From Microbacterium sp. M28 (lineage in GTDB: Bacteria > Actinomycetota > Actinomycetes > Actinomycetales > Microbacteriaceae), in NCBI RefSeq assembly GCF_025836995.1, contig NZ_CP107546.1:992001-1056000 (forward strand): DNA of 64,000 nucleotides, in the 5' to 3' direction. The notes under the pieces were generated by a model, which worked only from the letters and a program-made list of their open reading frames with translations, was not told the origin of the DNA and ran no database searches. Both the position numbers and the translations under genes were made by a program. Shown here one piece after another: positions 12,095 to 33,212 of the stretch (its first letter is position 1; each line of letters opens with the position of its first letter).

Positions 12095-12164
12095 GGGGTG
12101 CTCATTTCCTCGGGAGCTCGGGTCGGGTTCGGGGCGTTGCGGTCGGATGCCGGGATACGGAGTC

Positions 12165-12875
12165 TCAGCGGGAGACGAGCGGGCCGCGATCGGCGAGCTC
12201 GACGTCGGTGTTGTAGCGGTACAGGCGGGCTGGGCGGTGGCTGCCCGTACGGAAATCGTCGGTCGGCACGAGCGTGCCGGTCGCTTCGACCTGTCGGCGG
12301 AAGTTGGCCGGATCCAATCGGCGGCCGAGGATCGTCTCGTAGGCCTCGCGCAGGTCGGACAGGGTGAACGTCGGGGGAAGGAAGCCGTGCGCGACCCGGC
12401 TGTAGCCGACCTTGTTGCGCAGTCGCCACAGCGCGTAGTCGACGATCTGGTTGTGATCGAAGGCCAGCTGCGGGAGATCGACGGCGTCGAACCAGCGGAC
12501 GTTCTCCGGCGCGTTGCCCGCCGCGATGTGCGCGGCGCTCTGAGCGTCGACCTCGTCCTGTCGCAGCAGCGCCCAGTACACGATCGACACGACCCGGCTG
12601 GGGGAGCGGTCCACATCGCCGAACGCGTACAGCTGCTCGAGATAGCTCGGCGCGAGACCCGTCGTCTCGGCGAGCGTGCGCGCCGCGGCCTGCTCGAGCC
12701 CCTCGCTCGGCACCAGCCAGCCGCCGGGGAGAGCCCACTGGCCCTGATGCGGGTCCCTCGTGCGCAGGACCAGAGGAAGCGACAGCACCGGGGTGCCGTT
12801 CTCGCCACGGCGCAGCGTCAGGATCACCGTCGACACCGCGACGCGGATGTCGGCTTCCCCAGTTCTGGTCACCAT
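12165..12875 (-). CDS. ndnR: NrtR/NdnR-type transcriptional regulator of NAD biosynthesis
   Basis: The 236-residue protein has a Nudix-like N-terminal domain (about residues 8-140) and a winged-helix C-terminal domain (about 150-225), the NrtR arrangement, in which the Nudix part senses ADP-ribose or NAD and the C-terminal part binds DNA. The Nudix box reads GWLVPSEGLEQAAARTLAET and then TGL: both glutamates of the REUxEE core are Thr, so hydrolase activity is unlikely. The ATG at 12875 has a GGAGG eight bases upstream. In C. glutamicum, NdnR represses ndnR-nadA-nadC-nadS; the same layout here, with nadB added, supports an NAD-responsive repressor. Confidence 0.85.
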   Translation of the reverse strand: MVTRTGEADIRVAVSTVILTLRRGENGTPVLSLPLVLRTRDPHQGQWALPGGWLVPSEGLEQAAARTLAETTGLAPSYLEQLYAFGDVDRSPSRVVSIVYWALLRQDEVDAQSAAHIAAGNAPENVRWFDAVDLPQLAFDHNQIVDYALWRLRNKVGYSRVAHGFLPPTFTLSDLREAYETILGRRLDPANFRRQVEATGTLVPTDDFRTGSHRPARLYRYNTDVELADRGPLVSR

Positions 12876-12920
12876 GACTTTAACCTCCGGGAACGATCTT
12901 AGTGTCACCGTGACCAGAAC
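12862..12920. promoter_or_regulatory. Inverted-repeat operator candidate at the ndnR start
   Basis: The 11-base arms GTTCTGGTCAC (12862-12872) and GTGACCAGAAC (12910-12920) are perfect reverse complements 37 bases apart and straddle the ndnR ribosome site and start codon. Each arm is also part of a short dyad, GTCACCATGAC (12868-12878, one mismatch) and GTCACCGTGAC (12904-12914, perfect around a central C). Paired sites like these suit cooperative or looping binding of an autoregulator; NdnR is the obvious candidate. Confidence 0.6.
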
Positions 12921-12980
12921 ATCAATCCGCCGACGTCATATGTCGGAATCCGAAACGTTACGCGCCCGTGATGTGGACTC

Positions 12981-13036
12981 TTGTCTCGGCGCTGCAGGAT
13001 TTGTTAGGTTACTGTCCTAACAAACCCCTTCGGGGG
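12981..13036 (+). promoter_or_regulatory. Promoter with overlapping palindromic operator before importer 1
   Basis: TTGTCT (12981-12986) and TAGGTT (13005-13010) form a -35/-10 pair with an 18-base spacer. The -10 lies inside a perfect 9-base inverted repeat, TTTGTTAGG (13000-13008) and CCTAACAAA (13016-13024), so a bound repressor would block polymerase. The GTTAGG..CCTAAC half-sites resemble ROK-type sugar repressor sites; that is inference. A CCCC-UUCG-GGGG tetraloop hairpin (13025-13036) directly follows and would sit at the mRNA 5' end. Confidence 0.6.
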
Positions 13037-13089
13037 CTCGACGACGAGCAGCACCCTCCAAGCAGAGAAGCATCGAGAGGAAACATCAC

Positions 13090-14787
13090 ATGATCCGCAA
13101 TGGAAAGCGCCGTGTCGCGATCACGGCGATCGCGGGGGCATCCGTCCTCGCACTCGGCCTCACCGCCTGTTCGGGCGGGGGCGGCGACGACACCGGCGAC
13201 GGCGGAGACGCAGACACGACGCTGCGCGTCTGGGCCGGCAGCCAGACGCCGATCGAGCCGAACTTCAACCCATTCGCTCCGACCGTGCTCCACGGCGCAC
13301 TCGGGCCCATCCTCGAGCCGCTGTTCTTCTTCAACAAGACGGCCGACGAGCCGGCGACGGGGATGATCGGCGAGTCGTACGAGTACAACGAGGACGGCAC
13401 GGTCATCACCGTGAAGATCAAGCCGGACCTGAAGTGGAGCGACGGCGAGCCGCTGACCGCGGAGGACGTCGCCTTCACCTTCACGTACGAGGGCAACAAC
13501 CCCGAAGGACAGGGCCTCGTCTCCGCGGAGCCCCAGGACGACACGACCGTCGTGCTGACCTACTCCGCGCCGCAGTTCACCTCCGAGTGGCAGCGCATGG
13601 GCGGCACGTGGATCCTCCCCGAGCACGTCTGGAGCGAGGTCGACGACTTCGCGACCTTCACCAATGAGGAGCCGGTCGGATCGGGCGCCTACGTCGTCGA
13701 CAGCGTCACGAGCGAGTCGTACGTGCTCATCGCCAACGAGAACTACCGCGACGCGGACGACCTCGGCGTGGGCACCGTGCAGTACATCGCGGTGGACAAC
13801 AACCAGGCCGCACAGGATCTGCTCGCCGCCGGTGAGCTGGACTGGGCGGGCATGTTCATCCCGAACCCCGATTCCGTCACGGGCAACGGCAAGATCGACT
13901 GGATCAACACGCCCCAGGACCCGACCGTGCTGTACACCTGCGCCAACGCCGACCTCGGCTGCACGGGTGAGCAGACCGACGTCGCCGTCCGTCAGGCGCT
14001 GAACATCGCCATCGACCGCGGCACGATCAAGCAGAAGGCGTTCGTCGATCTCACGGGTGACATCTCGCCGACGTACGCGCTGCTTCCGCGTGATGAGAAG
14101 TGGGTCGCCGACCCGGCCAACGAGGTCAGCCCGCAGAGCCCGGATGCCGCGGGCGCCGGGGCCATCCTCGAGGCCGCGGGTTACACCAAGGACGCCGACG
14201 GCATGTACGGCAAGGGCGGCACGCCGATCGAGCTCGACCTGATCTCGGTGGACGGCTGGACCGACTACAACGACGCCGCGAAGCTGATCGCCGAGCAGGC
14301 CGGCGAGGCCGGCATCACCATCAACGTCGGCACCGTGCAGTGGCAGGAGTTCTCCGATGCGCGTCAGACCGGCCAGTACGAGCTGATCGTGGGCGGCATG
14401 ATCGGGACCTCGGTCGCCGACCCGTTCCAGATCTACCGCGACTGGCTCGGCGGCACCGAGGTCCAGTCGACCGGCCCGGTCGGCGAGGAAGTGCCGGCAG
14501 GCCGCTGGAACTTCAGCCGCTACAACAACCCCACCGTGGATGCCGCGATCGCCGCCGCCAACGCGACGAACGACGAGGCCGTGAAGATGGAGCAGTACGC
14601 CACGATCCAGACCGAGATCGTCCGCGACCTCCCGTACATCCCGCTGGTGATCAACGCCACCCAGACCTTCTACAACGCGAAGGACTTCACGGGTTGGCCG
14701 ACGGAGGAGGACCTGTACGCGTTCCCGCCGTCCTGGGGCTCCGTCTCGGCCGGATTCATCCTGCCGCAGCTGCAGCCGGCCGGCTGA
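13090..14787 (+). CDS. Solute-binding lipoprotein, family 5 (peptide or oligosaccharide importer 1)
   Basis: The 565-residue extracytoplasmic binding protein begins with a basic signal peptide and a lipobox LTAC with the lipidated Cys near residue 28, followed by a Gly/Asp linker. LKWSDGEPLTAEDVAFTF near residue 118 is the family 5 motif, and the length fits. The C-terminal LPYIPLVINATQTFYNAKDF, with GWPTEEDLYAFPPSWGS, resembles family 5 proteins that bind beta-linked oligosaccharides as much as those that bind peptides, so the ligand is open. It is the first gene of a five-gene operon behind a palindromic operator and is followed after 41 bases by the permease. Confidence 0.88.
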   Translation: MIRNGKRRVAITAIAGASVLALGLTACSGGGGDDTGDGGDADTTLRVWAGSQTPIEPNFNPFAPTVLHGALGPILEPLFFFNKTADEPATGMIGESYEYNEDGTVITVKIKPDLKWSDGEPLTAEDVAFTFTYEGNNPEGQGLVSAEPQDDTTVVLTYSAPQFTSEWQRMGGTWILPEHVWSEVDDFATFTNEEPVGSGAYVVDSVTSESYVLIANENYRDADDLGVGTVQYIAVDNNQAAQDLLAAGELDWAGMFIPNPDSVTGNGKIDWINTPQDPTVLYTCANADLGCTGEQTDVAVRQALNIAIDRGTIKQKAFVDLTGDISPTYALLPRDEKWVADPANEVSPQSPDAAGAGAILEAAGYTKDADGMYGKGGTPIELDLISVDGWTDYNDAAKLIAEQAGEAGITINVGTVQWQEFSDARQTGQYELIVGGMIGTSVADPFQIYRDWLGGTEVQSTGPVGEEVPAGRWNFSRYNNPTVDAAIAAANATNDEAVKMEQYATIQTEIVRDLPYIPLVINATQTFYNAKDFTGWPTEEDLYAFPPSWGSVSAGFILPQLQPAG

Positions 14788-19071: not shown

Positions 19072-19318
19072 ACGACCCGTGCGGGAGAGCCCCGGTGAAG
19101 CCGTCCGGGCACCGAAGGAGCAAGCCTCCCCGCCAATCTCTCAGGTACCGCGTACCGCGCCGGTCGGGCCACTCTGGAAAGCGATGCCTCGCGCAGCGAG
19201 GGATCCGCCGACGGTGAAAGCCCCTCGCGGGTGAAACTCTCAGGCCAATGACAGAGGGGGAGTTCTCGGATACCGTGCAATCAGTACGGCATCCTTCCGA
19301 TCCACACGGGAGAACTCC
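19072..19318 (+). promoter_or_regulatory. Tandem glycine riboswitch controlling gcvTHP
   Basis: Two glycine aptamers lie in series. The first (about 19072-19166) shows GCGGGAGAG, CACCGAAGGAGCAAGCC and CCAATCTCTCAGGTA. The second (about 19171-19260) shows CTCTGG with closing CAGAG, GCCGACGGTGAAAGC and AAACTCTCAGGCC. These are the conserved GGAGAG / GCCGAAGG / CTCTCAGG elements. After aptamer 2, GGAGTTCTC (19259-19267) is perfectly complementary to GAGAACTCC (19310-19318), which covers part of the GGGAG ribosome site and abuts the gcvT ATG. This suggests control of translation start rather than termination. Confidence 0.93.
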
Positions 19319-20419
19319 ATGACCCCAGCTCGGTACACACCTCTGCGCGAGCGTCACGAAGCGCTCGGCGCATCGTTCACCGACTTCGGCGGCTGGCAGA
19401 TGCCGGTGCGCTACACCTCGGACCTCGCTGAGCACCACGCGGTCCGGCAGGCCGCCGGACTCTTCGACATCTCGCACATGGCCGAGTTCCTCATCGAAGG
19501 AACGGATGCCGCGGCCTACCTCGATCACGCGCTCGCGGGGCGGATCTCGACCATGGCCGTCGGCAAGGCGAAGTACTCGCTCGTGCTCGCGGAAGCGGGC
19601 GGGATCGTCGACGACGTCATCGTCTACCGCCTCGCCGACGACCGCTTCCTGATCATCTCCAACGCCGGGAACCGGGATGCCGTGGCCGAGGCGCTGCCGC
19701 AGCGCACCGGGACGTTCGACGTCGCGGTCTCCGACGTCTCGGACGGCTACGCGCTCCTGGCGGTGCAGGGACCGGCCGCCGAGGCGATCGTCGCGGCGAC
19801 CGCCGGAATCGACGAGGTCTCGGTCCCCTGGGACGAGCAGAAGTACTACGCATGGGCCTCGGCCACCTACGCCGGCGTGCCGCTGCTGATCGCACGGACC
19901 GGGTACACCGGCGAGGACGGCTTCGAGCTGCTCGTCCGCGCCGCGGACGCCCCGGCGCTCTGGGATGCCGTGGTGGCGGCCGGACAGCAGCACGGCCTGG
20001 TGCCGGCGGGGCTCGCCGCCCGCGACACGCTGCGTCTCGAGGCCGGCATGCCGCTCTACGGGCATGAGCTCTCCCTCGACACGAAGCCGGCGCAGGCCGG
20101 ACTCGGCAGGGTCGTCGCCGCCGACAAGGAGGCGTTCGTCGGCAAGGACGGCGTCGCCGCGGAATCCGACGCCCGCGTCCTCACCGGGCTGTCGGCCGAG
20201 GGCAAGCGCGCAGGCCGGGCGGGATACGCCGTGGTCACCGAAGACGGCGCCGTCGTCGGCGAGATCACCAGCGGCGCGCTCAGCCCGACGCTCGGCCACC
20301 CGATCGCGATGGCCTACATCGATCCCTCGGCGCTCGCCGCCGACCTGTTCCTGGATGTGCGGGGCACGAAGATCCCCGCCGTCGTGACCGATCTGCCTTT
20401 CTACCGGAGGACGAAATGA
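19319..20419 (+). CDS. gcvT: Glycine cleavage system T protein (aminomethyltransferase)
   Basis: The 366-residue protein transfers the methylene carbon from aminomethyl-lipoyl GcvH to tetrahydrofolate and releases ammonia. [23 protein letters not shown] at the start, [31 protein letters not shown] with the catalytic Asp, [16 protein letters not shown] and [14 protein letters not shown] are the family motifs, and the length is typical. It is first in gcvT-gcvH-gcvP behind the riboswitch, and its stop overlaps gcvH by four bases. Confidence 0.96.
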
Positions 20420-20793
20420 CCGACCTGACCACCCTGAAGTACAGCGACGAGCACGAGTGGGTCGCCCTGACGGGCGATGTCGCGACCGTCGGCATCACCG
20501 ATTTCGCCGCTGACGCCCTCGGAGACATCGTCTTCGTGGAGCTCCCCGCCGTCGGCACCGAGATCAGCCGCGGCGACGTCTTCGGCGAGGCCGAGTCGAC
20601 CAAGTCGGTCTCCGAGCTCTACGCCCCGGTCGCCGGCACCGTGACCGAGGTCAACCAGGCCGTCGTCGACGACCCGGCTCTGCTGAACTCCTCGCCGTTC
20701 GAGGACGCGTGGCTGATCAAGGTGACCGTCGCCGACGGTGCGACCGACGGTCTGCTCGACCGCGACGCGTACGTCGCGCTGACCGAGGGCTGA
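20416..20793 (+). CDS. gcvH: Glycine cleavage system H protein
   Basis: The 125-residue lipoyl carrier shuttles the aminomethyl intermediate between GcvP and Gcv[21 protein letters not shown] opens the fold, and the lipoylated Lys is in [20 protein letters not shown] near residue 61. Length and the C-terminal helix are standard. It overlaps gcvT by four bases and is followed by gcvP seven bases later. No lipoate enzymes are adjacent. Confidence 0.97.
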
Positions 20794-20800
20794 TCGCGCA

Positions 20801-23728
20801 GTGGTCTCCTTCGCCGACCGTCACATCGGGACGACCTCCGAGACGCAGCGGCTCATGCTCGACGCGCTCGGCATCACGGATGCCGAAGCTCCCGTCGAGC
20901 AGCTGATGCGCCAGGCCGTTCCCGCGTCCATCTTGTCCCCTACGCCCACTCCAGACAGCGCTGGCGCGCTGCCCGGAGCCTCCGGGCTCGGGGCCCCTGC
21001 ACCGGGTGACACGATCATCCCCGCCGCCGCCAGCGAGGCCGAAGCGCTCGCCGAGCTGCGTGCGCTCGCCGCCCGCAACACCGTCAACACGCCGATGATC
21101 GGTCTGGGCTACTACGGCACGATCACGCCGAGCGTCATCCAGCGCAACGTCCTGGAGAACCCGTCCTGGTACACGGCGTACACGCCGTATCAGCCCGAGA
21201 TCTCGCAGGGACGGCTCGAGGCGCTGATCAACTTCCAGACCATGGTCTCCGAGCTGACGGGGCTGACGACCGCGAACGCGTCCATGCTGGACGAGTCGAC
21301 GGCCGTCGCCGAGGGGATGCTGCTGGCGCGGCGCGCGTCGAAGGCCACCACGAACGTGTTCGTGGTCGACTCCGGTGCGTTCCCGCAGACCAAGGCGCTG
21401 CTCGCCACCCGCGCGGATGCCGTCGGCATCGAACTCGTCGAGCGCGATCTCGCCGCAGGCGAGGCGCTGCCGGATGAGCTGTTCGGAGTGTTCGTGCAGT
21501 ACCCGGCCGCCTCCGGACTCGTGTGGGACCCGTCGGCGGTGATCGACGCGGCTCACGTCGCCGGAGGCCTCGCCGTCGTCGCGGCGGACCTCCTGGCGCT
21601 CACCCTGATCGCCTCGCCCGGATCGCTCGGCGCGGACGTCGCCGTCGGCACGACGCAGCGCTTCGGCGTTCCGATGGGCTTCGGCGGACCGCACGCCGGG
21701 TACATGGCCGTTCGTCAGGGCCTCGAGCGGCAGCTCCCCGGCCGCCTCGTCGGCGTCTCGGTGGATGCCGACGGCAAGCCGGCCTACCGTCTGTCGCTGC
21801 AGACGCGCGAGCAGCACATCCGCCGCGAGAAGGCGACGAGCAACATCTGCACCGCGCAGGTGCTGCTGGCCGTCATGGCCTCGATGTACGCGGTCTATCA
21901 CGGCCCAGACGGACTGCGGGCGATCGCATCCGAGACGGCGGCGAAGGCCGCCCTGCTGCGCGACTGGCTCGTGGAAGCCGGCGTCGAGATCGCCTTCGAC
22001 GCCTTCTTCGACACACTGTCGCTGCGTGTGCCCGGCCGTGCAGCCGAGTACGCTGAGCAGGCGCACCACGGCTACGGCATCCTGTTCCACGTCGCGGACG
22101 GTGACACGCTCGGCATCTCGGTCGACGAGACGACCACTGTCGCGGAGCTGCACCAGATCGCCATGGTGTTCGGCGGCAGGCAGGAGCGGGCTTTCGGACT
22201 CACCGGCGACGCCAACGCGCTGCCGGGCGCGCTGCGTCGCCAGGACGAGTACCTGACGCACCCGGTGTTCCACGTGCACCGCTCCGAGACCGCCATGATG
22301 CGGTACCTCAAGAGTCTCGCAGACCGCGACTACGCGCTCGATCGCGGCATGATCCCGCTGGGGTCGTGCACGATGAAGCTGAACGCGGCGACCGAGATGG
22401 CCGCGATCACGTGGCCGGAGTTCGCGGGCATCCACCCGTTCGCCCCGGCATCCGACGTCGCCGGCTACCTGGAGCTCATCGATCAGCTCGAGGGCTGGCT
22501 CGCCGAGGTCACCGGATACGACGCCGTCTCGCTGCAGCCGAACGCCGGTTCGCAGGGCGAGCTCGCCGGGCTCCTGGCGATCCGCGGGTTCCACCTCGCG
22601 AACGGCGACGACCACCGCACGGTGTGCCTCATCCCGTCGTCCGCGCACGGCACGAACGCGGCATCCGCGGTCCTTGCCGGGATGAAGGTCGTCGTGGTGG
22701 CCTGCGACGAGCTCGGAAACGTCGACCTGGACGATCTGCGCGCCAAGATCGCCGCCAACGCGGACGAGCTGTCGGCTCTGATGATCACGTATCCGTCGAC
22801 GCACGGCGTCTACGAGCAGCAGGTGGTCGAGATCACCTCCGCCGTGCATGACGCCGGCGGACAGGTGTACGTCGACGGTGCGAACCTCAACGCGCTGCTC
22901 GGCTACGCCCGGTTCGGCGACCTGGGCGGAGACGTCTCGCACCTGAACCTGCACAAGACGTTCGCGATCCCGCACGGCGGCGGCGGACCCGGTGTGGGTC
23001 CGGTGGCGGCCAAGGCGCACCTGGCGCCGTTCCTGCCCTCGCACCCTCTCGCCCAGCGCGCGGAGCACTTCGGCGGATTCGTCTTCGACGGCGGCGTCGT
23101 CTCGGCGGCTCCTTACGGATCAGCAGGCATCCTGCCGATCTCGTGGGCGTACGTGCGGATGATGGGTGCGGCAGGGCTGCGCGACGCGACGGCTGCGGCT
23201 GTCCTGTCGGCGAACTACATCGCCGAGCGTCTGCGCGAGCACTTCCCGGTGCTGTACACGGGCGAGAACGGTCGCGTCGCGCACGAGTGCATCCTGGATC
23301 TGTGTCCGCTCAAGGAGGCGACCGGCATCACGGTCGACGATGTCGCCAAGCGCCTCATCGACTACGGCTTCCACGCGCCGACGATGTCGTTCCCGGTCCC
23401 TGGGACTCTGATGGTCGAGCCGACGGAGTCCGAGGATCTCGGCGAGATCGAGCGGTTCATCGAGGCCATGATCATGATCAAGGCCGAAGCGGAAGCCGTG
23501 GCCGCCGGTCGCTGGGGTGCCGGTGACAACCCGCTCGTGAACGCGCCGCACACCGCTGTGTCTCTGATCGCGGGGGAGTGGAACCACTCCTACACCCGTG
23601 AGGAGGCTGCGTACCCTGTGCCGGCGCTCGTCGCAGGGAAGTACTGGCCGCCGGTGCGGCGCATCGATCAGGCGTACGGCGACCGCAACCTCGTGTGCGC
23701 GTGCCCGCCGATCGAGGCGTTCGCCTGA
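20801..23728 (+). CDS. gcvP: Glycine dehydrogenase (decarboxylating), P protein
   Basis: The 975-residue single-chain P protein decarboxylates glycine on PLP and passes the aminomethyl group to Gcv[22 protein letters not shown] starts the protein, [19 protein letters not shown] lies near residue 97, the N-lobe ends near 430, and the C-lobe carries the PLP lysine in [23 protein letters not shown] is the start, with no better ATG at the right place. Residues about 45-72 are a Pro/Gly/Ala/Ser-rich insertion between PASIL and the conserved [14 protein letters not shown]-like motif, which most homologues lack. The rest is intact, so function is expected. Confidence 0.96.
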
Positions 23729-23734
23729 CGCGTC

Positions 23735-23767
23735 CCCGGCGTGCCGGCATCATGCCGGCACGCCGGG
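23735..23767. terminator. Bidirectional terminator between gcvP and the TetR gene
   Basis: A 16-base arm (23735-23750) and its perfect reverse complement (23752-23767) form a near-complete palindrome that fills the gap between the convergent gcvP and TetR stop codons. No U-tract is present on either strand. Confidence 0.75.
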
Positions 23768-24379
23768 TCAGTCGCGCAGATCAGGCGGTGCGATCGCGAT
23801 CAACGCGTCGGCCAGCTCTTCCGCCGTGCGTTCGCGACCGTCCGTCAACCACCAGGAGATCGCAGCGAGCGTCCCGGCAGCGATATAGCGGGCTGTGACC
23901 TCCGGGTCCGCGGCGAGCGTCACTCGCGTGCGCAGGGTGATGAGCACCGACTCGGTGAGTCCGGTTGCGAAGCCTTCGACGAAGGCCGGGTCGGACGTGA
24001 GCAGTACGCCGTAGGTCGTGCGGTGGTCGGCGATGAAGCGGGCGATGTCCAACAGCACCTGCCGGTTGACCGCGGTCTTGGACGCGCCATCGACGATCGC
24101 GACGCGGGCCTGGGCGATCAGCGATTCGCTGAAGTCGCTGAGCGCCGTCGCAGCGAGGTCGCCGATCCCGGAGAAGTGCGCATAGAACGAGGACCGGGTC
24201 GTCCCCGCCTCTCGAACGATCCTCGCCACCCCGGCCGTGCGCACTTCGTCGGCGTCGACGAGCCTTCTGAACGCGTCGAGCAGCTTCCGTCGCGTCTTGA
24301 GCACGCGTCGATCGCTGCTGTCCACGCGTCGCGTCCGCAGGGTCTCCTGTTTGGATCCGGCCTCGATCATCCCCGCCAT
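23768..24379 (-). CDS. TetR-family transcriptional regulator
   Basis: The 203-residue regulator has an N-terminal helix-turn-helix, RRKLLDAFRRLVDADEVRTAG followed by VARIVREAGTTRSSFYAHFSG, at about residues 28-70, then a helical ligand-binding domain. The C-terminal half matches the TetR_C type with ISWWLTDGRERTAEELADAL. It is last in the DUF5058-amidohydrolase cluster, 58 bases after the hydrolase, with a strong hairpin between. The likely targets are this cluster and itself; a perfect palindrome at 27724-27734 upstream of the cluster is a candidate site. The ligand is unknown. Confidence 0.85.
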   Translation of the reverse strand: MAGMIEAGSKQETLRTRRVDSSDRRVLKTRRKLLDAFRRLVDADEVRTAGVARIVREAGTTRSSFYAHFSGIGDLAATALSDFSESLIAQARVAIVDGASKTAVNRQVLLDIARFIADHRTTYGVLLTSDPAFVEGFATGLTESVLITLRTRVTLAADPEVTARYIAAGTLAAISWWLTDGRERTAEELADALIAIAPPDLRD

Positions 24380-24393
24380 TCTCCCCGATCAGC

Positions 24394-24428
24394 AGGATGC
24401 CGGGGCGAGCGAGCCGCCCCGGCATCCT
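24394..24428 (-). terminator. Strong hairpin between the amidohydrolase and TetR genes
   Basis: Fourteen-base arms AGGATGCCGGGGCG (24394-24407) and CGCCCCGGCATCCT (24415-24428) pair perfectly around a seven-base loop. On the minus strand it lies directly after the amidohydrolase stop and before the TetR start. No U-run follows, so it may stop most transcripts or simply lower TetR expression. Confidence 0.55.
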
Positions 24429-24437
24429 GTGCGCCGT

Positions 24438-25892
24438 CTAGGCCGGGCGGTACGACGGGCGCAGCGACGGCGGGATGAGTCCTTTCGGCAGCGGCTTGTC
24501 GTAGGGCGTGACCGCGATGATGTCCGCGAACTCCCGCTGCGCCGCGGCCAGCAGCTCGGCGTCGGTGAACAGATCGATCGCTGTGGCCGCCATGACCTTC
24601 GCCCCGTGGATCATGCCCTTGTGCGCGGCCGCGGTCTTGCCCTGCGCGACCATCTGCCAGGAGTGTCCTGGCGTGCCGACGATCGCGGTCCCCGCTCCCA
24701 TCTGCACCGTCGGGGTGACCCAGCTCACGTCGCCGACGTCGGTCGAGCCCGTCATCTGCGGGCGCAGGGCGGCCGGCGGCAGCGGCAGCACCCCGTCGAA
24801 GTACGCGGGGCTGTCGGCGGGGATGCCGAGCTGGCGCTTCATCGCCTCGGCAGCCCCATCGGGGAGGCCGGCGGACAGGACCCGTCCATAGGCCTGGTCC
24901 GCTTCGTCGAAGTCGACCCCGCCGAGCTCCTCGAACACCGCCTGCATGTGCTTCTCCAGCGTCGCGTTGGGCAGCACTTCGGCGCAGGCGCCGTCGAACT
25001 CGATCTCCACCTCGGTCTCCGTCATCATCGCCGCGCCGTGGGCGACCTTCTTGACCCGTTCGTACAGCGTGCGCATGCGCGCGACCGTGGGCGAGCGCAC
25101 GATGTAGTAGAGCTCGGCCGTCGCCTGGACGACGTTGGCCGACGTTCCGCCCGCGTCGACGAAGGCGTAGTGGATGCGATCGGTGTCGTCCATGTGCTCG
25201 CGCAGGAAGTTCACGCCGACGTTCATGAGTTCGGCCGCGTCCAGGGCGCTGCGGCCGTGCTGGGGGTTGGCGCCGGCATGAGCGGCCAGACCCCGGAACC
25301 GGAAGTACGCCTGCGTGTACGCGAGGGTCTTCCACTGCGCAGCGGAGGCGAGGGGCATCGGATGGTTCGTCACGGCCGCGTCGACGTCGTCGAAGGCGCC
25401 GGCGGCCACCATGAACGTCTTCCCGGCTGCTCCCTCCTCAGCCGGGCAGCCGTAGTAGCGGACCGTCCCCGGCAGGCCGGCGGTCTCGAGATGCCGAGCG
25501 GCGGCGACGGCGGCCAGGAGCGATCCGGAGCCGAGGAGGTTGTGGTGGCAGCCATGACCCGCGTCGCTGCCGCTGTCCGGATCCGGGGTGCGTTCGGTCG
25601 CACCCGCCGCTTGGCTGAGCCCGGCGAGGGCGTCGTACTCGCCGAGGAACGCGATGACCGGCGATCCGGCGCCCCACTCGGCGCTGAACGCGGTCGGGAC
25701 GCCGCCCGCGGCCCGGGTGATCCGGCCGCCGAACTCTTCGGCGGCCGCGATCTGCTTGGCCATCGACGCGTGTTCTTCCCAGCGCAGTTCCGGCTCGGCC
25801 CAGATGTCGTCGCTGAGTCGGACGAATCGCGGCGAGAGCTCGTCGACGATCGGGGCGATGTCGGCGACGGTCGTTGTCGTTTCGGTGATCAT
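24438..25892 (-). CDS. M20-family amidohydrolase (AbgB/aminoacylase-like)
   Basis: The 484-residue di-metal hydrolase belongs to the M20D group with AbgB and N-acyl amino acid amidohydrolases. Metal and catalytic motifs are EPELRWEEH near residue 33, the histidine-cysteine cluster GHGCHHNLLGSG near 112, PAEEGAAGK near 152 and TNHPMPLA. RFRGLAAHAGANPQHGRSALDA, in the lid domain, is also typical. A GGAGG lies seven bases before the ATG. It follows two membrane proteins after 25 bases under the same glycine riboswitch. Cleavage of an amide releasing an amino acid, plausibly glycine, is inferred from the regulation; the true substrate is unknown. Confidence 0.86.
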   Translation of the reverse strand: MITETTTTVADIAPIVDELSPRFVRLSDDIWAEPELRWEEHASMAKQIAAAEEFGGRITRAAGGVPTAFSAEWGAGSPVIAFLGEYDALAGLSQAAGATERTPDPDSGSDAGHGCHHNLLGSGSLLAAVAAARHLETAGLPGTVRYYGCPAEEGAAGKTFMVAAGAFDDVDAAVTNHPMPLASAAQWKTLAYTQAYFRFRGLAAHAGANPQHGRSALDAAELMNVGVNFLREHMDDTDRIHYAFVDAGGTSANVVQATAELYYIVRSPTVARMRTLYERVKKVAHGAAMMTETEVEIEFDGACAEVLPNATLEKHMQAVFEELGGVDFDEADQAYGRVLSAGLPDGAAEAMKRQLGIPADSPAYFDGVLPLPPAALRPQMTGSTDVGDVSWVTPTVQMGAGTAIVGTPGHSWQMVAQGKTAAAHKGMIHGAKVMAATAIDLFTDAELLAAAQREFADIIAVTPYDKPLPKGLIPPSLRPSYRPA

Positions 25893-25917
25893 GTTCGGTC
25901 CTCCAGGACTCGGTGTT

Positions 25918-26688
25918 TCAGGAGAGGTCTTCGGCGGCGGGCTTCGGCTTCTTCTTCCCGACGGGGAGGATCAGCGCGAAGACGACGGTCGCGATCACGG
26001 AGAGCGCGATGCCGAACAGGGCGACGGCGGGGAACAGCGGCGTGAGCACGAGCTGGACGACGACGCCGACGACGACCGCGATCGTGAGGATCCGGATGTT
26101 GGGGTTCGACGAGATCATCTGCACGACGACCGCTCCCATCACCGCCGGCAGCACGAAGGTCTGCACTTGGGTGATGACTTCAGGGGGGAGCAGCCGCAGC
26201 AGCAGGGACCCGAAGAGGCCGACGAACACGAGCAGACTCACCAGATGCGTCGCGGCGGCGCCGCAGATCGCGAGAACGGCCGCGAGCTGGCCGCGCTTGG
26301 TCTCCGGCTTCGCCCCGATGGCGGACTGGGCCACGATCGCGGCCGGAACGAGCTTGTTGCTGATGTTGCCGATCATGAACGCCTGGTACATGCTCGCCGC
26401 CCCGAGGATCGGGAAGTACGAGAGAGGTTCGATGAACCAGAGCACGCCGAAGGCGAAGGCGATCGCCACGACACCGGCCGCGACCGCGGACACCTGAACG
26501 CCGAACTCGATCGCGAGCACGAGGGGTCCCGCGAGCATGAGGACGAGCGCGAGGATCATCGTGATCCGCCCCCACCGAGACGTCGTCGTGTCGAACTGCT
26601 TCCAGGCCCCTGCGGTCACGGGCGAGGTCGTCGGGGAGGTGGATGTCGACATGAGGGATGCTCCGCTCTGCTGCGCTGGGACGTTCAT
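25918..26688 (-). CDS. Polytopic membrane protein, partner of the DUF5058-like protein
   Basis: The 256-residue protein has a polar N-terminus of about 40 residues, Ser/Thr-rich, then about six to seven hydrophobic segments with short loops and a Lys-rich tail (GKKKPKPAAEDLS). IGNISNKLVPAAIVAQSAIGA near residue 100 looks like a re-entrant or loop motif. The ATG at 26688 overlaps the stop of the upstream membrane gene by four bases, which favours it over a later ATG at 26652. It is an uncharacterised family to me. Its obligate coupling to the DUF5058-like gene suggests a two-component transporter or channel for the substrate of the M20 hydrolase. Confidence 0.7.
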   Translation of the reverse strand: MNVPAQQSGASLMSTSTSPTTSPVTAGAWKQFDTTTSRWGRITMILALVLMLAGPLVLAIEFGVQVSAVAAGVVAIAFAFGVLWFIEPLSYFPILGAASMYQAFMIGNISNKLVPAAIVAQSAIGAKPETKRGQLAAVLAICGAAATHLVSLLVFVGLFGSLLLRLLPPEVITQVQTFVLPAVMGAVVVQMISSNPNIRILTIAVVVGVVVQLVLTPLFPAVALFGIALSVIATVVFALILPVGKKKPKPAAEDLS

Positions 26689-27446
26689 TGGATGCCTGCG
26701 TTCGATACGAGGATGCCGACGCCGATCGCGACGATCATCGATATGCCGAGTGCCCACTCCTTGAGCCAGTCCTGGCGGAAGGCCTTGGCGATCCAGAGGC
26801 AGAGGAGCATGACGAGTGCGCTCGCGATGGCGACGATGGCGACCGCGAGTCCCTTCTGCAGCTGCTGGATGCCGAAGGTGCCGAAGGCGCCGAGCAGCGC
26901 GGCGGTCGGGATGATCGCCATCGCGCCGCCGGTGGTTGCAGCCTGCTTCGCCTCCAGACGGTCGGTGCCGCGCTTGAGCAGCGGCGTCACGATGAGTGTG
27001 ACGAGCATCCACCCGGATCCCGCGAGGGCGATGCAGAGCATCACCGTCGCGAAGACCTGCTGCGTGTAGCCGTCGCCGCCGAGCACGACGCCCTGGGTCT
27101 CGGCGGCGATTCCGGCCGCGCCCACCTCGAACGCGGCTGAGCCGATCAGGCCGATGCGGGTGAGCACTCCGGGTGTTCCGAAGACGCTGAGCAGAGTGAC
27201 GGCGATCAGCGCCACAGCCATGGAAGGGCCGATCGCCGCCACGGCGCCGGAGCGGAACGAGCGCTTCACATCGGTCGCGCTCATCTCGACGGCGGGGGCC
27301 GCGCGTCTGGCAGCGCGGTAGTAGATGATCGTCTGCGCGGCTATCACGGCGAAGACGCCTGCCGCGCACAGCCAGAGAACCGGCTGATTCGCCGCGGCCA
27401 GGATATCGGTGGAGTTCGGATCGAGGACGATGGGGACGAAGGACAC
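26685..27446 (-). CDS. DUF5058-like membrane protein, first gene of a glycine-riboswitch operon
   Basis: The 253-residue protein starts with an extracytoplasmic segment and TM1 at about residues 20-43, then AARRA and five further hydrophobic segments, ending in a helix MIVAIGVGILVSNAGI. SFRSGAVAAIGPSMAVALIAVTL near residue 66 and GSAAFEVGAAGIAAETQGV near 102 look like conserved core elements. The N-terminus, with NQPVLWLCAAG and an Arg-rich loop, matches my memory of DUF5058 (PF16481), whose function is undescribed. The GTG start has GGAGA ten bases upstream. The preceding leader is a tandem glycine riboswitch. Confidence 0.72.
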   Translation of the reverse strand: MSFVPIVLDPNSTDILAAANQPVLWLCAAGVFAVIAAQTIIYYRAARRAAPAVEMSATDVKRSFRSGAVAAIGPSMAVALIAVTLLSVFGTPGVLTRIGLIGSAAFEVGAAGIAAETQGVVLGGDGYTQQVFATVMLCIALAGSGWMLVTLIVTPLLKRGTDRLEAKQAATTGGAMAIIPTAALLGAFGTFGIQQLQKGLAVAIVAIASALVMLLCLWIAKAFRQDWLKEWALGISMIVAIGVGILVSNAGIQ

Positions 27447-27470
27447 GGGCGGTCTCCTTGCGTAGAGCTG

Positions 27471-27662
27471 CCGAACTCCGGGCGGAGTTCCGGTTCCCCT
27501 CTGTCCGTTGTGCCTGAGAGTGTCGCGCTGTGCGCTTCCCCTTCGGCGGGCCTCGCGAGGCCTCTCTCCAGAGTTCCCCAGTCAGCGGGTCCTTCTGCCT
27601 GAGAGATTGGCGGGTGGCTTGCCCCTTCGGCGTCCGCATCTCGTGCGGATCTCTCCCCGGTG
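27471..27662 (-). promoter_or_regulatory. Second tandem glycine riboswitch, controlling the DUF5058/M20 operon
   Basis: Read on the minus strand, aptamer 1 (about 27662-27586) contains CCGGGGAGAG, GCCGAAGGGGCAAGCC and CAATCTCTCAGGCAGAAGGAC. Aptamer 2 (about 27574-27497) contains ACTCTGGAGAG, GCCGAAGGGGAAGC and ACTCTCAGGCACAACGGACAGAG. These are all conserved glycine-aptamer blocks in order. A GC-rich hairpin, GGAACTCC with GGAGTTC (27490-27473), follows aptamer 2, 25 bases before the GTG start, and is the likely expression platform. Whether glycine turns the operon on or off cannot be read directly. Confidence 0.93.
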
Positions 27663-27723
27663 ACTGTTCGGGCGTCGGTCGCGGATGTGCGACCGCCGGT
27701 GTTTCGTGTTGTGGGTCAATAAT

Positions 27724-27734
27724 GGACATTGTCC
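27724..27734. promoter_or_regulatory. Perfect palindrome, candidate TetR operator
   Basis: GGACATTGTCC is an 11-base dyad (GGACA-T-TGTCC), set in an AT-rich stretch about 60 bases upstream of the second glycine riboswitch, where the operon promoter should lie. The only regulator in the cluster is the TetR protein at 23768-24379. The 27447-27952 gap between genes holds the riboswitch, this palindrome and the promoter of importer 2, and nothing else I can support. Confidence 0.45.
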
Positions 27735-27859
27735 GATTACAGCGGAAGACCGGTGCGGTTACGGGTGTGTAACGGTCCGCCGGCGCGGGGGGATCGCCGT
27801 CGAAAAGGCGGCGCGAGTATTTTCCGACCGCTCGTTCAGTAACAGTTGATTAACGGAGA

Positions 27860-27889: not shown

Positions 27890-27952
27890 CTGAGTATCGC
27901 GACGTACTCGACGAGGAGTGCGCGTTCATCGATGTCCACAGGAGGACACAAA

Positions 27953-29587
27953 ATGAAGCGAAACAGAGGCGCCCTCGCAGGCGCGGCGCTGCTGACCGCA
28001 GGCTTGATCGCACTGGCCGGATGCTCGTCGGGCGGTGATCCGGATCCCGAAGGCGATTCCGGCGCCGCGGCCGACGCGGACGCGATCATCACGACGAACG
28101 GCACAGAACCCGAGAACCCGCTCATCCCGACCAACACCAACGAGGTCGGCGGCGGCAAGATCCTCGACAACATCTTCGCCGGCCTGGTCTACTACGACGC
28201 CGAGGGTGCGCCGGTCAACGACATGGCTGAGGAGATCATCGTCGAGGACCCGCAGCTCATCCGCGTCAAGCTCAAGGAGGGGCAGACCTTCACCGACGGG
28301 GAAGAGGTCACGGCCGACAACTTCATCAAGGCGTGGAACGAGGGCGCGAAGCTCTCCAACGCCCACCTCTCGAGCTACTTCTTCGAGGACATCGAAGGCT
28401 TCAGCTGGGACGCGGACTCGGAGCTGACGGGGCTTGAGCAGGTCAGCGACTACGAGTTCACGATCGCGCTGAACAAGCCGGCCGCGGACTTCGCGCTGCG
28501 CCTGGGCTACTCCGCCTACTACCCGCTCCCTGACGTGGCCTTCGAGGACATGGCGGCCTTCGGGGAGAGCCCGATCGGCAACGGACCGTACATGCTCGCG
28601 GACGAGGAGGCCTGGGAGCACGACGTCAAGATCGAGCTGGTCCGCAACGACGACTACCAGGGCGGTCGCAAGCCGGCCAACGGTGGTCTGACGATCAACT
28701 TCTACGCCACGCAGGATGCCTCGTACGCCGACCTGCTCGGCGGCAACGTCGATGTGATCGACGAGATCGCACCCGTGTCCCTGCCCACCTTCCAGGACGA
28801 CCTCGGCGACCGTGCGGTGAACCAGCCGTCCGCGCTGTTCCAGTCGTTCACGATCGGACAGTTCCTGCCGCACTTCGGCGGCGAAGAGGGCATCCTGCGG
28901 CGTCAGGCCATCTCGATGTCCTTCGACCGCGCGCAGATCACGGAGAAGATCTTCTTCGACTCCCGAACGCCGGCATCCGACTTCACGTCCCCGGTCATCG
29001 ACGGCTGGACCGACGAGCTCGAGGGCAAGGAGGTGCTCGAGTACAACCCGGAGAAGGCCAAGGAACTGTGGGCCGAGGCCGACGCCATCTCCCCGTGGGA
29101 GGGCGAGTTCAAGATCGCGTACAACTCCGACGGCGGCCACGAGGAGTGGGTCGAGGCCGTGACGAACTCGATCTCGAACACGCTCGGCATCGAGGCGTCC
29201 GGTGAGCCGTACCCGACCTTCGCCGCCATCCGCGAGAAGGTCAACGACGGAACGATCACGACCGCGGCCCGCTCCGGATGGCAGGCCGACTACCCGGGGC
29301 TGTACAACTTCCTCGGACCGCTGTACGCCACCAACGCCGGTTCCAACGACGGCGATTACAGCAACCCGGAGTTCGACGAGCTGCTGAGCTCGGGCATCAG
29401 CAACACCGATGTCGACGCTCAGGTCGAGGACTTCAGCAAGGCGCAGGAGATCCTGCTCAACGACCTGCCGGCGATCCCGCTCTGGTATCAGAACGTGACC
29501 GGTGGGTACGGAGAGAACGTCGACAACGTGACGTTCGGATGGAACTCCGTGCCGATCTTCCACGAGATCACGAAGGCCGCCGAGTAG
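27953..29587 (+). CDS. Solute-binding lipoprotein, family 5 (peptide importer 2)
   Basis: The 544-residue lipoprotein has signal peptide MKRNRGALAGAALLTAGLIA and then LAGC, with the lipidated Cys near residue 24. The ATG at 27953 has GGAGG eight bases upstream and is preferred over an ATG seven codons earlier. VKLKEGQTFTDGEEVTADNF is the family 5 motif near residue 105, and ARSGWQADYPGLYNFLGPLY, with NDLPAIPLWYQN, matches OppA-like peptide binders. The paralogue at 13090 is clearly different. It is first of a four-gene importer set and is followed by a strong stem-loop before the permeases. Confidence 0.9.
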   Translation: MKRNRGALAGAALLTAGLIALAGCSSGGDPDPEGDSGAAADADAIITTNGTEPENPLIPTNTNEVGGGKILDNIFAGLVYYDAEGAPVNDMAEEIIVEDPQLIRVKLKEGQTFTDGEEVTADNFIKAWNEGAKLSNAHLSSYFFEDIEGFSWDADSELTGLEQVSDYEFTIALNKPAADFALRLGYSAYYPLPDVAFEDMAAFGESPIGNGPYMLADEEAWEHDVKIELVRNDDYQGGRKPANGGLTINFYATQDASYADLLGGNVDVIDEIAPVSLPTFQDDLGDRAVNQPSALFQSFTIGQFLPHFGGEEGILRRQAISMSFDRAQITEKIFFDSRTPASDFTSPVIDGWTDELEGKEVLEYNPEKAKELWAEADAISPWEGEFKIAYNSDGGHEEWVEAVTNSISNTLGIEASGEPYPTFAAIREKVNDGTITTAARSGWQADYPGLYNFLGPLYATNAGSNDGDYSNPEFDELLSSGISNTDVDAQVEDFSKAQEILLNDLPAIPLWYQNVTGGYGENVDNVTFGWNSVPIFHEITKAAE

Positions 29588-29605
29588 TAACGGCGGATCG
29601 AGCGC

Positions 29606-29636
29606 TACGGGGCGGCGAGAGCATCGCCGCCCCGTA
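29606..29636 (+). promoter_or_regulatory. Intercistronic stem-loop after the binding-protein gene
   Basis: Arms TACGGGGCGGCGA (29606-29618) and TCGCCGCCCCGTA (29624-29636) are perfect 13-base complements with a five-base loop. It sits between the binding protein and the first permease with no U-run after it. Such a hairpin can protect the upstream mRNA or stop most transcripts, giving more binding protein than permease. Confidence 0.7.
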
Positions 29637-29681
29637 TGACGCTCCCTGTCGAGCCTGCTCGCTATCCCGAAGGGACAGCGA

Positions 29682-30608
29682 ATGCTCACCTACATCATCC
29701 GGCGCCTCCTGCAGGTCATCCCCGTGTTCTTCGGCGCCACGCTTCTCATCTACGCACTCGTCTTCGCGATGCCGGGCGATCCGATCCTGGCTCTGTTCGG
29801 TGACAGGACACCGAATCCGGCGCTGCTGGCGGCGCTGCACGAGCGCTACCACCTGGACGAACCGTTCCTGGTGCAGTACTGGTACTACATCACCGGTGTG
29901 CTGCAGGGCGACTTCGGTGTCACGTTCTCCGGGAGGGCGGTCGGCGAAGTGCTCGCCGAGACTCTGCCCGTGACCGGGCGCCTGGCCGTCATGGCGATCG
30001 GCATCGAGTTCGTGCTCGCGATCGTCATCGGCACGATCTCGGCACTGCGCAAGGGCAGGCTGTTCGACAACACGTCGCTCGTGATCGCGCTGCTGGCCAT
30101 CGCCGTGCCGATCTTCGTGCTCTGCTTCCTGGCGCAGTACTTCCTCGCCATCCAATGGGGTTGGTTCCGCCCCACCGTCGGGGCCCAGAACGACTGGGGG
30201 GATCTCTGGCTGCCCGCCATCGTCCTCGGCATAAGCCTCTATCCGGTGAGCATGCGCCTCATGCGCGGCTCCGTCATCGAGACGCTCGGCCAGGACTGGG
30301 TGCGCTCGGCCTACAGCAAGGGCCTGTCCCGCTACCGTGTGCTGCCCGTGCACGTGCTGCGCAACTCCCTCCTGCCCGTCATCACCAACTCGGCGACCAA
30401 CTTCGGGGTCCTGCTGGTCGGTGCGACCGTGACCGAGGGCATCTTCAACGTTCCCGGCGTCGGCAACACGCTGTACCAGGCGGCGATCCGCGGAGAGGGG
30501 CCGACCGTCGTCTCCTTCGTCACGGTGTTCGTTGTGCTCTACGTGCTCGTGAACCTCATCGTCGACCTGCTCTACGGCCTACTCGACCCGAGGATCCGCT
30601 ATGTCTGA
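29682..30608 (+). CDS. ABC importer 2 permease (OppB/DppB type)
   Basis: The 308-residue permease begins MLTYIIRRLLQVIPVFFGAT and has FAMPGDPILALFGD near residue 29, HERYHLDEPFLVQYWYY near 50 and the EAA loop VRSAYSKGLSRYRVLPVHVLRN near 207. The length is normal for OppB. The last codons overlap the next permease by eight bases, as in importer 1. Confidence 0.92.
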   Translation: MLTYIIRRLLQVIPVFFGATLLIYALVFAMPGDPILALFGDRTPNPALLAALHERYHLDEPFLVQYWYYITGVLQGDFGVTFSGRAVGEVLAETLPVTGRLAVMAIGIEFVLAIVIGTISALRKGRLFDNTSLVIALLAIAVPIFVLCFLAQYFLAIQWGWFRPTVGAQNDWGDLWLPAIVLGISLYPVSMRLMRGSVIETLGQDWVRSAYSKGLSRYRVLPVHVLRNSLLPVITNSATNFGVLLVGATVTEGIFNVPGVGNTLYQAAIRGEGPTVVSFVTVFVVLYVLVNLIVDLLYGLLDPRIRYV

Positions 30609-31542
30609 CTCCACCTCACGCACGCACTACGTCGCCCCGGTCGTGACCGAGACCATCGCGGTCGACGCGGTCAGAGTCGCCGAGAAGCCCAGCAACCTGT
30701 GGCGCGACGCCTGGCGCGATCTGCGGCGCCGTCCGCTGTTCTGGTTCTCCATCGTCCTCGCATTGATCTTCATCGTGATGGCGGCGTGGCCGACCCTGTT
30801 CACCCCTGTCTCGCCGCGGCAGTGCTCGCTCGACTACAGCAACGAAGGGCCCGCACCCGGGCACCCGCTCGGATACACGTTCCAGGGCTGCGACATCTAC
30901 GCCAGGATCGTGTGGGGGGCGCGCACATCGCTGTCGGTCGGTCTGCTCGCGACGCTGCTCTCCTCCACCATCGGCCTCATCATGGGGGCGCTCGCCGGGT
31001 TCTACGGCGGCTGGCTGGACGGTCTGCTCTCGCGCATCGGCGACATCTTCTTCGCCATCCCGTATATCCTCGCGGCGGTCGTCGTGATGACCGTGTTCTC
31101 GGACTACCGATCGGTCTGGACGCTCTCGCTCGCGATCGGCGGATTCGCGTGGGCCGCCAGCGCCCGGGTGCTGCGCGCCGAGGTGCTGCGGGTCCGACAA
31201 TCCGATTTCGTGATGGCTTCCCGAGCTCTGGGCCAGTCGAAGTTCCGCACACTGCTCAGCCACGTGCTGCCCAACTCGATCGCGCCGCTGCTGGTGGTCA
31301 CGACCCTCGGCCTTGCGACCGCGATCGTGGCCGAGGCGACCCTGTCTTTCCTCGGCGTCGGCCTGGGCGGCTCGATCGTGTCGTGGGGCAATGACATCAG
31401 CAAGGCGCAGGCAGCGCTCCGCGTCGCACCGGCATCCCTCATCTATCCGTCGATCGCGCTCACGCTGGCCGTGCTCGCGTTCGTGACACTGGGCGAGCTG
31501 ATCCGCGACGCCCTCGACCCGAAGGCGAGGGCACGCCGATGA
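30601..31542 (+). CDS. ABC importer 2 permease (OppC/DppC type)
   Basis: The 313-residue permease has a 40-residue cytoplasmic N-terminus, RRRPLFWFSIVLALIFIVMA as TM1, the OppC periplasmic element HPLGYTFQGCDIYARIVWGAR, and an EAA loop FVMASRALGQSKFRTLLSHVLPN near residue 203. ATLSFLGVGLGGSIVSWGND precedes the last helices. It overlaps the ATPase gene by four bases. Confidence 0.92.
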   Translation: MSDSTSRTHYVAPVVTETIAVDAVRVAEKPSNLWRDAWRDLRRRPLFWFSIVLALIFIVMAAWPTLFTPVSPRQCSLDYSNEGPAPGHPLGYTFQGCDIYARIVWGARTSLSVGLLATLLSSTIGLIMGALAGFYGGWLDGLLSRIGDIFFAIPYILAAVVVMTVFSDYRSVWTLSLAIGGFAWAASARVLRAEVLRVRQSDFVMASRALGQSKFRTLLSHVLPNSIAPLLVVTTLGLATAIVAEATLSFLGVGLGGSIVSWGNDISKAQAALRVAPASLIYPSIALTLAVLAFVTLGELIRDALDPKARARR

Positions 31543-33212
31543 GCCGCTATCCGCAGGCCGACCTCCAGGCCCCGATGCTCCGCGTCCGAGACCTGAAGGT
31601 CGCCTTCCACACGCAGGACGGCGAGAACGAGGTGCTGCACGGCATCAGCTTCGACGTCATGCCCGGCGAGACCCTCGCGATCGTCGGCGAATCCGGATCG
31701 GGCAAGTCGACCACGGCGACGGCGATCGTGAATCTGCTCCCCGGCAATGGGAAGATCACCGGCGGGACGGTGGAGCTGGAGGGCCGAGACCTCACCGCGC
31801 TGAGCAGCAACGCGATGGAGGAGGTTCGCGGTCGCGACATCGGCTTCGTGCCGCAGGACCCGATGTCGAACCTCAACCCGGTGTGGAGCATCGGCTTCCA
31901 GGTGAAGGAGGCGATCCGCGCCAACGGGATCGTGCAGGGGCGCGCCGCCGTCAAGGAACGCGCGATCGAGGTGCTGCGCCAGGCCGGGCTGGCCGACGCG
32001 GACCGACGCCTGCATCAGTACCCGCACCAGTTCTCCGGCGGCATGCGGCAGCGCGCGCTGATCGGCATCGGACTGGCAGCCGACCCGCGTCTGCTCATCG
32101 CCGATGAGCCGACCTCGGCCCTCGACGTCACCGTGCAGCGCGTCATCCTCGACCACATGGCGAAGCTGACGAGAGAGAAGGGCACCTCCGTTCTGCTGAT
32201 CACGCACGACCTCGGCCTCGCGGCCGAGCGCGCGGAGAAGATCATCGTCATGAACGGCGGCAACATCGTCGAGGCCGGTCCCAGCAGCCAGATCCTCACC
32301 GACCCGCAGCATCCCTACACCAAGCGATTGGTCGCAGCAGCCCCCAGCCTCGCGTCGCAGCGCATCCAGGCCGTCGTCGAGGATCGCGGAGTCGAGACGT
32401 CGGACCAGCTGGCGGCGATCCCTCCGACCGTCCGCGTACGCGGGCTGGTCAAGGACTACAAGATCCGGCAGGGCGGCTTCCGCAGCATCCCGTTCCGAGC
32501 CGTCGACGATGTGAGCTTCGACATCCCGCGCGGCAAGACGCTCGCCCTGGTGGGGGAGTCCGGATCGGGCAAGTCCACCGTGGCGAAGATGGTCCTCAAG
32601 CTCGAAGAGCCCACCGACGGAAGCATCGAGATCGACGGCATCGACGTCTCGCGTCTGTCCAACGCGCAGGCTTTCGCCCTGCGCCGTCGGATGCAGCCGG
32701 TGTTCCAGGACCCGTACGGGTCCCTCGACCCGCTGCGCAACATCGGCAACACGATCGCGGAGCCCCTGAACATCCACGACGTGGGGGACACGGCGTCTCG
32801 GCGCGAACGCGTCAGGGAACTCCTCGACCAGGTCTCCCTGCCGCAGGCGCTGGCGACGCGGTATCCCAACGAGCTCTCCGGCGGACAGCGTCAGCGTGTC
32901 GCGATCGCCAGGGCCCTCGCGCTCAAGCCGGACATCGTGGTTCTCGACGAGGCGGTCTCGGCGCTCGACGTGCTGGTGCAGGACCAGATCCTGCAGCTTC
33001 TCGCCGAACTGCAGTCCGGCCTCGGCCTCACGTACCTGTTCATCACCCACGACCTCGCCGTCGTGCGCGTCTCGAGCGATCTCGTGTGCGTGATGGAGCA
33101 GGGCAGGGTCGTCGAGCAGGGGACGGTCGACGAGATCTTCGCCGATCCGCAGCAGGCCTACACGGAGAGGCTGCTGGCGGCGATCCCGGGGGCTGCGGTC
33201 CTCGATGGCTGA
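31539..33212 (+). CDS. ABC importer 2 fused double ATPase (OppD-OppF fusion)
   Basis: The 557-residue protein holds two complete ABC domains, replacing the separate D and F subunits of importer 1. Domain 1 (residues about 8-270) has GESGSGKST, FSGGMRQR and LLIADEPTSALD. Domain 2 (about 295-550) has GESGSGKST, LSGGQRQR and IVVLDEAVSALD. Each has a Q-loop (VPQDPMSNLNP and VFQDPYGSLDP). The fusion is common in Actinobacteria and fixes a one-to-one ratio of the two ATPases. It overlaps neighbours by four and eight bases. Confidence 0.93.
   Translation: MSRYPQADLQAPMLRVRDLKVAFHTQDGENEVLHGISFDVMPGETLAIVGESGSGKSTTATAIVNLLPGNGKITGGTVELEGRDLTALSSNAMEEVRGRDIGFVPQDPMSNLNPVWSIGFQVKEAIRANGIVQGRAAVKERAIEVLRQAGLADADRRLHQYPHQFSGGMRQRALIGIGLAADPRLLIADEPTSALDVTVQRVILDHMAKLTREKGTSVLLITHDLGLAAERAEKIIVMNGGNIVEAGPSSQILTDPQHPYTKRLVAAAPSLASQRIQAVVEDRGVETSDQLAAIPPTVRVRGLVKDYKIRQGGFRSIPFRAVDDVSFDIPRGKTLALVGESGSGKSTVAKMVLKLEEPTDGSIEIDGIDVSRLSNAQAFALRRRMQPVFQDPYGSLDPLRNIGNTIAEPLNIHDVGDTASRRERVRELLDQVSLPQALATRYPNELSGGQRQRVAIARALALKPDIVVLDEAVSALDVLVQDQILQLLAELQSGLGLTYLFITHDLAVVRVSSDLVCVMEQGRVVEQGTVDEIFADPQQAYTERLLAAIPGAAVLDG

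Follow-up and report, generated by a model that had tools for sequence, protein, structure and literature searches.

What does a tandem glycine riboswitch control when the genes behind it encode two membrane proteins and an amidohydrolase? The question is raised by a locus in a 64,000-nucleotide stretch of the Microbacterium sp. M28 genome, referred to here as the window. On the minus strand, riboswitch aptamer 1 (27577–27668; RF00504, 70.5 bits, E = 1.1e-12) is followed by aptamer 2 (27491–27581, 53.5 bits in a genome scan; 27499–27573, 41.6 bits in a local scan), both above the RF00504 gathering score of 32. A default whole-window scan returned one aptamer for this module, aptamer 2 being real but degenerate. 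Downstream on the same strand lie a DUF5058 membrane protein gene with a GTG start (26685–27446; PF16481, E = 3.5e-61), the gene of a second membrane protein, MemB, whose family is unnamed in Pfam and NCBIfam and which overlaps the first through an ATGA (25918–26688), and an M20D amidohydrolase gene of the AbgB/PM20D2/HmrA-like type (24438–25892), starting 25 bases past the MemB gene. The last gene of the operon encodes a TetR-family regulator (23768–24379; PF00440 and PF14278). All of these parts had been proposed in the initial annotation, and each was confirmed by profile or sequence analysis.

The glycine cleavage genes gcvT (19328–20416), gcvH (20416–20790) and gcvP (20801–23728) lie next door on the plus strand behind a tandem glycine riboswitch of their own (19072–19264, plus strand; RF00504, 60.8 and 44.6 bits), likewise as first annotated. 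They converge on the DUF5058 operon, so that TetR and gcvP meet tail to tail; the perfect inverted repeat CCCGGCGTGCCGGCATCATGCCGGCACGCCGGG between them (23735–23767) is a likely terminator common to both ends. These two tandem glycine riboswitches are the only ones found by a scan of the 3.37 Mb genome, and DUF5058 is single copy, which argues that the arrangement of genes and riboswitches did not arise by chance. On the other side, the cassette is divergent from an operon for an oligopeptide-type ABC transporter (SBP_bac_5, permeases and ATPase; 27932–33212), which in the closest congeners usually neighbours gcvP.

DUF5058 has a scattered distribution. It was found in 9 of 248 Microbacterium genomes, in 6 of 250 genomes of the family and in 3 of 397 of the phylum, the latter two counts each taking in one match below the Pfam cut-off. 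Scanning a genome collection with a DUF5058 alignment gave 80 loci from several orders of Actinobacteria. MemB was encoded beside DUF5058 in every one, and an M20D gene lay within 4.5 kb in 75, one of the remaining five being cut by a contig end. Five of the 80 duplicate loci taken earlier from whole genomes, and the distinct actinobacterial set, window included, comprises 88 loci. The same three genes are present on haloarchaeal plasmids, and in Paracoccus they occur in the order M20D, DUF5058, partner. A recurrent link of the DUF5058 pair to M20 genes and glycine aptamers, on which the initial annotation had staked its reading, was thus borne out and is strongly supported by these gene neighbourhoods. 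Loci L073, L080, L089 and L090 keep DUF5058, its partner and an adjacent amidase gene without an M20D. Locus L025 has two tandem M20D copies after the membrane pair (10966–13925), of which the first looks broken by a frameshift; the assembly itself seems frameshift-rich. A DUF5058 gene is also carried on a mobilizable Paenarthrobacter plasmid (L114).

The window DUF5058 protein matches its profile over the full length (1–222 of 222; 207 bits against a Pfam gathering cut-off of 28.2) and has about six hydrophobic segments by hydropathy. MemB matches no profile of Pfam or NCBIfam at E ≤ 1, and residues E87, N108, K112, Q121 and H148 are invariant in its actinobacterial alignment. AlphaFold2 modelling, with alignments drawn solely from the window and genome loci, gave a fair model for DUF5058 (pLDDT 80, pTM 0.68) and a poor one for MemB (pLDDT 69, pTM 0.42), too weak for a fold search. 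For the DUF5058 fold, the PDB gave no match at an E below 2, and the highest match probability was 0.18. Sequence searches of the PDB returned no DUF5058 relative and none that was meaningful for MemB, and comparison of the two proteins detected no kinship between them (hhalign probability 1.2). From their constant pairing and gene overlap, we infer that DUF5058 and MemB form one two-subunit transporter.

The window M20D protein scores 234.5 bits against TIGR01891 (curated cut-off 153.75), and its relatives in the PDB include 3ram, 8xzc and 3io1 (AbgB; E = 1.1e-20). The metal-ligand residues C115, H117, E153 and H205 are kept in 80 of 80 aligned hydrolases. As it has no hydrophobic segment, the enzyme is probably cytosolic, and such a hydrolase encoded next to two membrane proteins would fit with import. 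Two M20D subfamilies accompany DUF5058: loci of the window clade have an AbgB/PM20D2-like enzyme, those elsewhere the canonical type. With about 25–31% identity between them, their substrates may differ across loci, which counts against a common glycine-amide function. The Arthrobacter locus L061 has the AbgB-like type within the other DUF5058 clade.

Twelve loci have a glycine riboswitch ahead of the trio: seven Microbacterium genomes including the window, three Nocardioides (two species) and two Rhodococcus. Mapped onto the DUF5058 tree, this label changes four times, three of the changes being forced by starred branches (at least three). The Rhodococcus riboswitch loci have the canonical M20D type, so the glycine link is not bound to one hydrolase. 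Glycine cleavage genes lie within 8 kb of 9 of the 88 distinct actinobacterial loci, against 0.35 expected by chance in a 4 Mb genome; the corresponding Poisson value of 2e-10 overstates the significance, because the loci are related. The layout of the gcv genes varies: they converge with the trio in the window, diverge from it in Rhodococcus and three Microbacterium genomes, and run in its direction at other loci. Five haloarchaeal plasmids were examined, and in four of them the trio adjoins gcvT-gcvH-gcvPA-gcvPB-lpdA, in some clusters together with glyA, lipA and threonine ammonia-lyase. These four cases are related plasmid loci, which counts against the glycine-amide reading set out below. 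Genes annotated as TRIC channels flank the haloarchaeal trio at L120 (11158–11778) and L121 (9308–9958), and the former, from Halobellus, matches PF03458 'Glycine transporter'. A literature search on a bacterial TRIC/PF03458 glycine transporter returned nothing relevant.

The sign of the cassette riboswitch was approached through the relative conservation of its aptamers. In GCV riboswitches, which are typically ON switches, conservation is reported to favour aptamer 1; in those of transporters, typically OFF switches, it favours aptamer 2 (PMC6944388). All 36 pairs of leaders within the window clade, and 65 of 66 pairs among all twelve cassette leaders, showed the stronger conservation in aptamer 1. 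For gcv leaders of the same loci, the figure was 14 of 21 pairs, with the boundary of one leader poorly set. Since aptamer 1 is the better conserved, as reported for GCV riboswitches, the cassette riboswitch leans towards ON, i.e. activation by glycine. The initial annotation had cell glycine feed back through the RNA; a feedback that shuts expression off would not agree with this leaning. Folding of Shine-Dalgarno accessibility, over the whole leader or from the end of aptamer 2, gave small differences on which homologues disagreed, and the gcv leader control was equally uninformative. That the cassette riboswitch was copied from the one of the host's gcv operon was considered and set aside; the core sequences of the two leader types are distinct, and the cassette type also occurs in Nocardioides. 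Of the reported glycine-riboswitch targets in Actinobacteria, 74% belong to glycine cleavage and 22% to other parts of glycine metabolism (PMC6944388). A 2013 RNA regulon survey, covering only Corynebacteriaceae and Mycobacteriaceae among the Actinobacteria, groups such targets under metabolism, transporters and serine genes (PMC3766115).

The cassette is an insertion. In the eight congeners with the closest gcvP, about 200 bases separate the gcvP stop from the start of the opp solute-binding gene. In the window, 4 kb of cassette, riboswitch and TetR included, sits between gcvP and the opp operon, and the relatives' similarity to the window mostly stops near the gcvP stop. The nearest cassette found comes from a Nocardioides, which belongs to a different order; it shares the riboswitch, the trio, TetR and the operator, and its M20D protein is 85% identical. 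This near-twin, together with the insertion between gcvP and opp, makes it appear that the cassette moves as one unit with the riboswitch aboard.

Upstream of the riboswitch, the palindrome TCAATAATGGACATTGTCCGATTACAG (27716–27742) is likely the TetR operator, as judged from its co-occurrence with the TetR gene. Its 17-base form ATGGACANTGTCCGATT is found exactly once, with 0 mismatches, before the cassette in each of five genomes with a TetR-bearing riboswitch cassette, and is absent from four Microbacterium genomes with a cassette devoid of TetR; a reversed-pattern control gave near zero. The palindrome is also present in L036 and L037, both TetR carriers. L037 keeps TetR and operator but has no riboswitch, indicating that the two layers of control are separable.

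We hypothesize that the locus is a laterally moving catabolic cassette for glycine-containing amides. DUF5058 and MemB, as a two-subunit transporter, would import the amide, which could be a glycyl or hippurate-like compound or an N-acyl-glycine. In the cytosol, the M20D enzyme would then split it to free glycine, to be burned by the adjacent glycine cleavage system. The tandem riboswitch would read cytosolic glycine and most likely raise expression with it, alongside gcv, and TetR at its palindromic operator would provide a second input, probably the substrate. Import, hydrolysis and burning of a glycine amide would jointly explain the regulator, the enzyme, the neighbouring genes and the archaeal clusters. 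The parts with their order and recurrence, the riboswitch, the operator pattern and the insertion were established computationally, whereas two-subunit transport, import, release of glycine, the ON sign and the TetR ligand belong to the hypothesis. We hold this reading as a whole, glycine-ON riboswitch and TetR included, to be evenly poised between right and wrong.

AbgT-AbgAB is a known permease-hydrolase unit, and in E. coli AbgA-AbgB-AbgT, which takes up and hydrolyses p-aminobenzoyl-glutamate, a membrane permease is joined to an M20D amidohydrolase as in the cassette. AbgT is a different, single-chain permease, in whose place the cassette has DUF5058 and MemB, and Pfam and NCBIfam profiles gave no AbgT match in the cassette. 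To our knowledge, AbgABT has no link to a glycine riboswitch or glycine cleavage, and we know of no hydrolase partner for glycine-riboswitch symporter genes. Riboswitches of sodium:alanine/glycine symporters resemble the cassette's in placing glycine RNA over a transport gene, but are OFF switches (PMC11477304). The closest described arrangement is in C. difficile, where a lysine riboswitch precedes yfcC and an M20D gene in an apparent operon (PMC11477304). There, too, genes for a permease and an M20D amidohydrolase follow an amino-acid riboswitch, with lysine and YfcC in place of glycine and DUF5058/MemB. The gcvTHP riboswitches share with the cassette's a tandem form and a better conserved aptamer 1 (PMC6944388), but govern cleavage enzymes, whereas the cassette riboswitch precedes a membrane pair and a hydrolase.

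Other functions have to be weighed against the glycine-amide cassette. No glycine riboswitch precedes DUF5058 in 76 of the 88 distinct actinobacterial loci, which counts against that reading, and many trio loci are accompanied instead by genes for an amidase and a regulator of the AsnC type; the membrane pair as a family therefore need not be glycine-specific. These loci would suit a general scavenging of N-acyl amino acids or dipeptides, in which glycine would be just one of the products and the riboswitch an addition at loci where the release or toxicity of glycine matters. The swapping of hydrolase subfamilies between loci points the same way, as do the other specificities of the closest PDB relatives of the window enzyme. 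Such generality sits poorly with an association with gcv and glycine riboswitches that recurs across separate lineages, including archaea, and we consider it rather unlikely, if deserving of serious attention.

Alternatively, DUF5058-MemB could move glycine itself, by an uptake that glycine shuts off or an efflux that it induces, leaving the hydrolase a side role. Excess glycine is toxic, and the glycine riboswitches known before transporters are OFF switches (PMC11477304), a point that also counts against the glycine-amide cassette. However, a hydrolase that is nearly always there, a conservation of aptamers that is GCV-like and a PF03458 gene already beside the trio in the Halobellus cluster make glycine transport improbable. 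That neither predicted fold matches a solved transporter (the MemB model being weak) would also suit a membrane pair acting as a sensor or as an assembly platform for the hydrolase. We give this very little credence, as invariant polar residues lie within hydrophobic multi-helix proteins and the gene partnership resembles that of AbgT with AbgAB.

Placement of the trio under a glycine riboswitch and beside gcv, and again beside gcv in haloarchaea, suggests an undescribed route of feeding on glycine-containing compounds. A bolder proposal, which we consider less likely than not, is that DUF5058 and MemB constitute a transporter family not described before and without relatives among solved structures, serving glycine conjugates specifically in the window branch and in haloarchaea. 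If true, this would be a new nutritional route from an environmental amide pool into glycine cleavage, shared by two domains of life. A functional hypothesis is thereby available for DUF5058, a Pfam family for which an open-access literature search, with most subscription journals outside its reach, found no paper, and a second membrane family missed by Pfam and NCBIfam is brought to light. A predicted permease-hydrolase operon is added to the targets of glycine riboswitches, and its riboswitch appears to travel with it between bacterial orders. In two Arthrobacter loci (L054, 11954–12051; L058, 11958–12055), a glycine riboswitch was found with the AsnC-type regulator gene of the trio on one side and a gene for serine dehydratase on the other.
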